A DNA stretch of 25,792 nt from Baffinella frigidus. Taxonomy: Eukaryota > Cryptophyceae > Cryptomonadales > Baffinellaceae. Below, in pieces: positions 6,862 to 24,139 of the stretch. A model generated the notes under the pieces. The model saw nothing but the letters and a program-made list of their open reading frames with translations, searched no databases and was not told where the DNA came from. Location: positions 487,157 through 512,948 of the forward strand of contig MU646528.1 of the NCBI GenBank assembly GCA_026770585.1, read 5' to 3'. Each line of letters opens with the position of its first letter. The first letter of the stretch is position 1. A program made the position numbers and the translations under genes.

Positions 6862-7134
6862 ATGAGCGCGCCAGCTACAGGGTTGCTGGCAATGCAGGCA
6901 CTCGTTGCGGGCTTACCCCATGCCAAAGCCCAAGAAATCATCGAAACTTATGTGAAGGAGCAGCGACGAGCAGAGGATGCAGAGCAACGAGCTCAGGGAG
7001 CAGAGCGGCAGCAACGCGAGGTGCAAGAGCGAGAGAACAACGCTCTGATGCTCTGCCCTGAGCACCCGGAGGACAGACTCTCGAGAGTGAAGATCGACAC
7101 GGCGCTCACGCGGTTCACCGCGACCGAGATCGAG
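6862..7134 (+). CDS. Helicase gene exon 1 (N-terminus)
   Basis: Starts MSAPATGLLAMQ; TAG at 6859-6861 is in frame and directly upstream, which fixes this ATG as the first possible start. Residues ~30-65 are rich in E, Q, R and A (KEQRRAEDAEQRAQ) and are likely a helical or coiled-coil segment. The end, VKIDTALTRFTATEIE, leads into donor GAG|gtagtc in phase 0. The peptide around PEHPEDRLSRVKIDTAL recurs in two non-functional copies elsewhere in the window (8058-8128 and, inverted, 769-830). Confidence 0.85.

Positions 7135-24139: not shown

Follow-up and report, generated by a model that had tools for sequence, protein, structure and literature searches.

The window, i.e., the whole stretch of 25,792 nucleotides analyzed here, carries on its forward strand a gene with 29 predicted introns, many of which hold tandem arrays of the heptamer CCCTAAA and its variants (Table 1). 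The gene model was assembled manually, guided by reading frame and splice signals, and subsequently corrected against the closest homologue. Its introns have GT-AG ends in 26 cases and GC-AG ends in three, and CAG is found at all 29 acceptors; as splice sites were picked to keep the frame open, the 1,132 open codons and the splice ends are partly given by construction. Judged by these ends and by the continuous frame, the 29 predicted introns fit the spliceosomal (U2-type) class. Earlier models with 32 exons needed the doubtful exons 17262-17332 and 19619-19648 as well as a GC donor at 12332 to maintain the frame, all three of which were removed by the Baffinella protein.

The closest protein found is T484DRAFT_1840958 (P0001) of Baffinella frigidus, with 733 of 911 aligned residues identical (80%), and three further homologues of the gene product are 33-38% identical. 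Judging by this one Baffinella protein, the gene most likely belongs to a cryptophyte. A junction was counted as contiguous when at least four of 12 residues were identical in the pairwise alignments; splicing is read here from frame and homology, not from RNA. By this measure, at least one of the four homologues is contiguous across 22 of the 29 junctions, and across nine of the 14 in heptamer-rich introns; the other seven of the 29 fail in all four. That the frame remains open through every array speaks against a mis-assembly at the repeats, although the splice sites were chosen for an open frame.

By eye, we take the gene product to carry helicase-like motifs together with a RING/PHD-like finger. 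The presumed helicase-like motifs cross several junctions, e.g., GECQC/GKS (Walker-A-like) at intron 2 and VVVT/GQIGGRG at intron 19 (slashes denote junctions), and the zinc finger CRE/CKKFFHDAC is split by intron 8. Profile matches to RING fingers are weak: a PDB search with a profile of four sequences returned RING fingers with a best E of 0.00014, and a single-sequence PDB search with the window protein returned nothing at E 0.001 or below. In Pfam, the window protein has one match only, Prok-RING_1, which is sub-threshold; among the homologues, SAM_Ste50p is just above the cut-off in P0002 and RING sub-threshold in P0003. No match was obtained in NCBIfam, where three homologues were queried, or in Rfam, and a single scan of prokaryote contigs revealed no relative. 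On the minus strand at 882-1721, a further open frame, 279 codons long from stop to stop, possibly represents a second gene; it contains no heptamer block and has no Pfam match up to E 1.

Table 1. The host gene, selected predicted introns, and exon copies within them (positions in the window; heptamer shares with one mismatch allowed).
Feature	Position	Strand	Remarks
Host gene	6862-24139	+	30 exons, 29 introns; 1,132 amino acids, ATG to TGA; from open frame and homology
Intron 2	7358-7580	+	42% heptamer; junction within the presumed Walker-A-like motif
Intron 3	7754-8252	+	heptamer runs 7764-7793 and 7842-7977; contains partial exon 1 copy
Exon 1 copy in intron 3	8064-8123	+	60 nt, 95% identical to 7050-7109
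Intron 5	8926-9064	+	TTTAGGG-sense run 8939-8970, 13 nt past donor
Intron 6	9131-9973	+	80% heptamer; blocks 9154-9724 and 9799-9968; reaches 5 nt before acceptor
Intron 7	10034-10502	+	TTTAGGG-sense block 10038-10123 at donor; CCCTAAA-sense 10292-10488 near acceptor
Intron 8	10569-10996	+	GC-AG; 61% heptamer (10572-10833), 3 nt past donor; splits zinc finger
Intron 10	11557-12254	+	83% heptamer (11563-12175), 6 nt past donor
Intron 16	15575-16401	+	40% heptamer (15578-15935), 3 nt past donor; plus terminal-inverted-repeat element
Intron 18	16856-17534	+	TTTAGGG-sense run 16875-16906 near donor; CCCCAAA-rich block 17469-17531 up to acceptor
Intron 19	17623-17850	+	GC-AG; 83% heptamer (17639-17848), 2 nt before acceptor
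Intron 22	18935-20291	+	74% heptamer (18939-19531, 19664-20106), 4 nt past donor
Exon-end copy in intron 22	19549-19575	+	decayed, 22/27 identical to 18908-18934; between two arrays
Intron 23	20333-20614	+	91% heptamer, donor to acceptor
Intron 25	21553-21824	+	70% heptamer (21562-21757)
Intron 26	21875-22437	+	TTTAGGG-sense run 21879-21916, 4 nt past donor
Intron 27	22478-22553	+	76 nt, 76% heptamer; branch-like CTAAT in heptamer variant near end
Intron 28	22680-23474	+	53% heptamer (22683-22905, 22963-23183), 3 nt past donor
Exon-end and donor copy in intron 28	22904-22961	+	84% identical over 58 nt to 22628-22685; between two arrays
Intron 29	23653-24056	+	75% heptamer (23727-24044)

Heptamer Content of Introns, Exons, and Intergenic DNA

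When one mismatch is allowed, heptamers cover 37.6% of the intron bases (13,879 bases), 9.5% of the intergenic bases (8,514), and 3.4% of the exon bases (3,399). Exact units alone cover 20.2%, 3.0%, and 0%, respectively. Over the whole window, exact cover in the CCCTAAA sense amounts to 11.9%, about twelve times the 0.99% (maximum 1.23%) reached in 20 first-order Markov sequences, and in the TTTAGGG sense to 0.92% as compared with 0.19% (maximum 0.31%). Units were merged over gaps of at most 20 nt, and merged stretches of at least 40 nt with at least 70% cover are referred to as blocks; 25 of these are found in introns and four in intergenic DNA (binomial p 0.007, given the bases in either compartment). 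All counts stem from one gene in one window, and the strand and position patterns discussed below were noticed after the sequence had been viewed.

The first-pass annotation had described at least 15 introns as dominated by heptamers. Our number is slightly lower: the heptamer share (one mismatch) is at least 30% in 14 of the 29 introns, which we call heptamer-rich, at least 50% in ten, and at least 75% in six. The observation as such is confirmed; 24 of the 29 introns hold a run of at least 18 nt in either sense and five lack one. Intron 27, described there as almost entirely heptamer, has the composition given in Table 1, and the heptamers are not equally dense in the introns and the intergenic DNA of the window.

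Among the 528 in-phase units of the CCCTAAA-sense blocks in introns, CCCTAAA is the commonest, with 226 occurrences. Its complement TTTAGGG is a telomere motif reported to be present in cryptomonads (PMC7046594). The arrays are internal tandem repeats of what is presumably the telomere motif of the host; the motif is taken from cryptomonads generally and not from the host's own telomere, and the host is assigned by the single homologue P0001. One might suppose that the whole region is degenerate telomere-rich DNA of subtelomeric location with the gene lying within it, and arrays do occur outside the gene as well, at 77-297, 3913-4048, and 25626-25792. However, with an intergenic cover about four times below the intron cover and with blocks distributed as described above, we regard this explanation as quite improbable.

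Repeats of other types were noted in the window, too. Four related stretches, 72-80% alike, are located upstream of the gene (3292-3454) and in introns 13 (14353-14433, a partial match), 16 (16146-16314), and 24 (21226-21400). The copy in intron 16 has terminal inverted repeats beginning CACACAGCGG, whose arms are 90% complementary, and the other copies look alike by eye; the left end of this element has no exact match in the viral contigs. The same contigs contain nine stretches (L001-L009) with at least four exact TTTAGGG/CCCTAAA units, arranged in one or two short blocks each and largely outside long reading frames; these stretches were left aside. Related and partly inverted sequences (84% over 97 nt) flank the gene on both sides, at 6030-6181 and at 24156-24281 and 25233-25286, and 2746-2831 and 24889-24975 form an inverted pair (84%). 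Long hairpins at 4656-4838, 4872-5004, and 13712-13862 have arms of 64, 39, and 54 nt that are 95%, 92%, and 80% complementary, respectively. A cluster of imperfect direct repeats (2091-3233) gives matches of about 120-430 nt with 84-94% identity, many of which, by eye, end in ACCTAAAGGA-like sequence. Finally, two long CTT-rich stretches in introns 18 (17344-17411) and 20 (17968-18109) are 81-84% alike.

Orientation and Placement of the Arrays

With respect to the coding strand, 21 intron blocks (5,179 bp) have the CCCTAAA sense and only four (276 bp) the TTTAGGG sense (p 0.0009). The intergenic blocks, three and one, respectively, are too few to serve as an orientation control. As found, the arrays contain 0.98% AG and 0.31% GT; if flipped, they would contain 11.5% and 14.0%, compared with 5.5% and 5.8% in other intron DNA. 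Acceptor-like YAGG sites occur at 0 per kb in the arrays as found versus 80.5 per kb in flipped arrays. TTTAGGG-sense runs of at least 18 nt are confined to seven introns. In five of these the run begins no more than 25 nt past the donor (0.6 expected), and in none of the seven does such a run come as close as 25 nt to the acceptor. From this pattern we infer selection through splicing as the cause of the strand bias; a mutational bias may also be its source.

Three results are at odds with a simple splicing story. Firstly, the AG-free stretch before the acceptor is not longer in heptamer-rich introns (median 22.5 versus 23.0 nt). Secondly, AG-creating changes are rare in one class (40 units CCCTGAA versus four CCCTAGA and five CCCTAAG), and among the C-to-G variants GCCTAAA (4), CGCTAAA (4), and CCGTAAA (5) the AG- or GT-creating ones are at least as frequent as the harmless one (4 and 5 versus 4). 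Since the AG-creating C-to-G changes are not depleted, unit variants give no demonstration of selection inside the arrays. Thirdly, branch-like CTRAY motifs reach 7.9 per kb in sense arrays versus 3.1 per kb in other intron DNA, and lie within the last 60 nt in only two of the 14 heptamer-rich introns and in six of all 29. Strand bias, adjacency to donors (see below), and the high density of CTRAY might be taken to suggest that the arrays are kept for a job, e.g., to aid splicing or, by binding telomere-repeat proteins, to adjust transcription. Yet CTRAY is not placed near acceptors, the arrays vary in length, purity, and place, and five introns do without any run of 18 nt, and we therefore give this explanation very little credit.

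Concerning placement, a run begins no more than 25 nt past the donor in 17 of the 24 introns with runs of at least 18 nt in either sense, where 6.3 are expected and none of 5,000 random placements reached 17. At the acceptor, 11 of the 24 have a run that ends at most 25 nt away (6.5 expected, p 0.013). For CCCTAAA-sense blocks, the first block lies within 10 nt of the donor in ten of 18 introns (3.0 expected), and a block edge lies within 25 nt of a splice site in 17 of the 18 (7.9 expected). The acceptor side alone is weaker, with five of 18 introns within 10 nt compared with 3.3 expected (p 0.14), and three of 15 compared with 1.1 in a second block-placement test (p 0.09). These expectations presume that all positions in an intron are equally likely to receive an array. 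In a rotation test, donor adjacency was weak, with p 0.04 for a distance of 25 nt and 0.37 for 12 nt, and the acceptor had p 0.90; this test was set aside because rotated long arrays wrap over the intron ends and thereby raise the null. The donors at 15575, 10569, 22680, and 18935 and the acceptors at 17534 and 17850, named earlier as places where heptamers begin or end, proved to be the exact first and last intron bases, respectively, with blocks starting 3-4 nt after the former and heptamers stopping 2-3 nt before the latter.

A heptamer run extends to within 5 nt of the acceptor in introns 4, 6, 18, 19, 20, and 23. Judged by its position, heptamer DNA is presumably the 3' splice-site region of these six introns. 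Only one of them (intron 4) has CTRAY in the last 60 nt, and since this motif is rare near acceptors, the use of heptamers as 3' splice site would need a looser branch point. The CTAAT of intron 27 begins 18 nt before the intron end.

Growth of the Arrays and Origin of the Introns

Variant units are not scattered at random within the arrays. In the 25 intron blocks, there are 85 adjacent pairs of identical variant units, where 32.7 are expected and 1,000 shuffles did not exceed 48; in all 29 blocks, the count is 89 compared with 33.5 expected. As identical variants cluster, they were copied locally after they had arisen, which shows that much of the array growth is due to local duplication rather than to fresh telomerase synthesis. 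Such clustering, with variants like CCATAAA (24 of 528 units) and CCCTACA (26) often side by side, would also be found if a chance C-rich seed in an intron had expanded by slippage as an ordinary minisatellite, the likeness to telomeres being coincidental or limited to the initial seed. From independent seeds, however, different units would be expected, and the cryptomonad telomere motif CCCTAAA is the commonest unit across many separate introns. We consider such an expansion unlikely.

Introns 22 and 28 bear on the extent of the duplicated segments. In intron 28, the exon end is followed by an array, a copy of the exon end plus donor, and a second array; intron 22 is arranged likewise, its exon-end copy being more decayed. 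On the simplest reading, the exon end would have been duplicated together with the array in both cases. By unit order, the second array of either intron is not measurably a copy of the first. When 15 of the 24 CCCTAAA-sense blocks, those longer than 150 nt, were compared with each other, all 105 pairs were raised (z 0.9 to 8.1, mean 4.0) and none was singled out. Only two of the 29 blocks have duplicated flanks; deletions and filler are visible only against an empty site. In an exon-wide scan for copies, the exon 22 copy scored 29, a value that shuffles reach as well (30 shuffles; mean 28, maximum 35). Pairing the two flanks of one array in intron 22 gave a score of 17. Ten of 812 cross pairs scored 17 or more, and nine of these ten involve shared or overlapping DNA. 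For the putative exon 22 copy, this flank pairing is a stronger argument than the exon-wide scan.

Apart from the copy in intron 28 and that of exon 1 in intron 3, the exon-wide scan revealed no exon copies in introns above the shuffles. The exon 1 copy resembles, and might be, templated filler at a repaired break. Tandem genomic duplication has as its hallmark an exonic AGGT segment at both intron ends; the copies in introns 22 and 28 are internal and do not lie at the acceptor.

The annotation had proposed that telomere-type DNA creates or enlarges introns. Enlargement of the introns of this gene is well supported, with about 38% of the intron bases in heptamers and the excess at donors, while creation is possible for introns 19, 23, and 27 only. 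Without heptamers, these three would comprise merely 37, 26, and 17 nt, respectively, and introns 23 and 27 are heptamer nearly end to end. Together with the start of arrays at donors far above random placement, this is what one would expect if telomere-type fragments had been inserted into exons at splice-like AG/G sites and spliced from the start, such that the array is the intron. On the other hand, the non-heptamer remainder of the 14 heptamer-rich introns has a median of 148 nt and exceeds 100 nt in ten of them, and the Baffinella protein also points to older introns. In its gene model, an insert of 15 residues coincides exactly with the intron 19 junction and starts with RPQLS, similar to RSQLS translated from the intron start in the window; gaps are present at or next to introns 3, 5, 8, 14, 15, and 16, among others. 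These gaps and inserts are best read as introns that were probably already there and were misread by annotation, which concerns four of the 14 heptamer-rich junctions (introns 3, 8, 16, and 19). At eight of the 14 the Baffinella protein is contiguous, which says nothing on an intron there, and two are beyond its end. Since the gaps and inserts are read as pre-existing introns, enlargement of older introns is better supported than creation, and we are doubtful that the arrays founded the introns outright.

Known Systems and Proposed Mechanism

Among known systems, the interstitial telomeric sequences of mammals are described as inserted at double-strand breaks, with border deletions being most frequent and duplications a minority; in human, 31% are intronic, a share regarded as compatible with random insertion (PMC2246262, PMC7215372). 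Our arrays resemble them in being internal arrays of telomere units, some intronic, with putative flank duplications in a minority (here two of 29 blocks). Unlike the mammalian cases, blocks of up to 613 nt occur here many per gene, are about four times denser in introns, start at donors, and are strongly stranded. Plant telo boxes are likewise telomere motifs inside genes, but short single ones, most frequent in 5' UTRs, for which telomerase action at free DNA ends has been proposed (PMC3022908), whereas here long arrays fill introns.

A protist with larger, and there apparently gained, repeat-bearing introns is the chlorarachniophyte Amorphochlora amoebiformis, where half of 26 introns absent from a relative hold [AT]n repeats and nine are at AG/GN sites (PMC12730881). 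In contrast to our case, these are dinucleotide repeats and not telomere-type, and presence or absence was judged there against the relative. With introners (PMC7789003), which often carry terminal inverted repeats, the arrays share the spread of one sequence type across many introns; they differ in being a tandem heptamer unit instead of a transposon-like copy, and no terminal inverted repeats were seen at splice sites. In particular, none of the 25 longest of 39 inverted pairs (at least 30 nt, within 400 nt) and none of 56 self-comparison matches pairs both ends of a heptamer-rich intron. The main text of one introner study (PMC9860276) makes no mention of cryptophytes or telomeres, and in the literature on telomere repeats and introns, as far as our partial coverage extends, we found no report of protist introns built of telomere repeats.

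Taken together, we consider it probable that spliceosomal introns of this cryptophyte nuclear gene were swollen by interstitial telomere-type repeats. Telomere-type DNA would have been joined at or beside introns in break repair, via telomerase or captured telomeric fragments. The arrays would then have grown and been reshuffled by local duplication, at times with the adjoining exon end, as suggested by unit order and the two exon-end copies. Coding selection would have kept the exons clear; they contain no exact unit, though their borders were chosen by reading frame. The CCCTAAA sense would survive in introns by virtue of having nearly no GT or AG, and of the TTTAGGG sense, with GT and AG in each unit, only shorter stretches would persist, most of them close behind donors. 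In the six introns with heptamers up to the acceptor, the spliceosome presumably uses heptamer DNA as 3' splice-site region, judged by position. The explanations considered in this study are not mutually exclusive, and the confidence we place in them overlaps.

Origin and growth of introns are a long-standing question, and where the added DNA came from can seldom be seen. In this gene its source is recognizable, which gives direct access to the sites of insertion, the orientation, and the subsequent decay. As a speculative extension, telomere-type DNA might be a general source of cryptophyte introns: telomerase or captured ends would join broken exon edges, the C-rich strand, with hardly any splice-site dinucleotides, would for that reason be tolerated by the spliceosome, and introns would be born or rebuilt genome-wide. 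If the finding were general, cryptophytes would make a telomere-repair route to intron growth or gain testable by comparison of strains. They would also provide an example of a repeat that, nearly devoid of GT and AG on one strand, is accepted as intron DNA.
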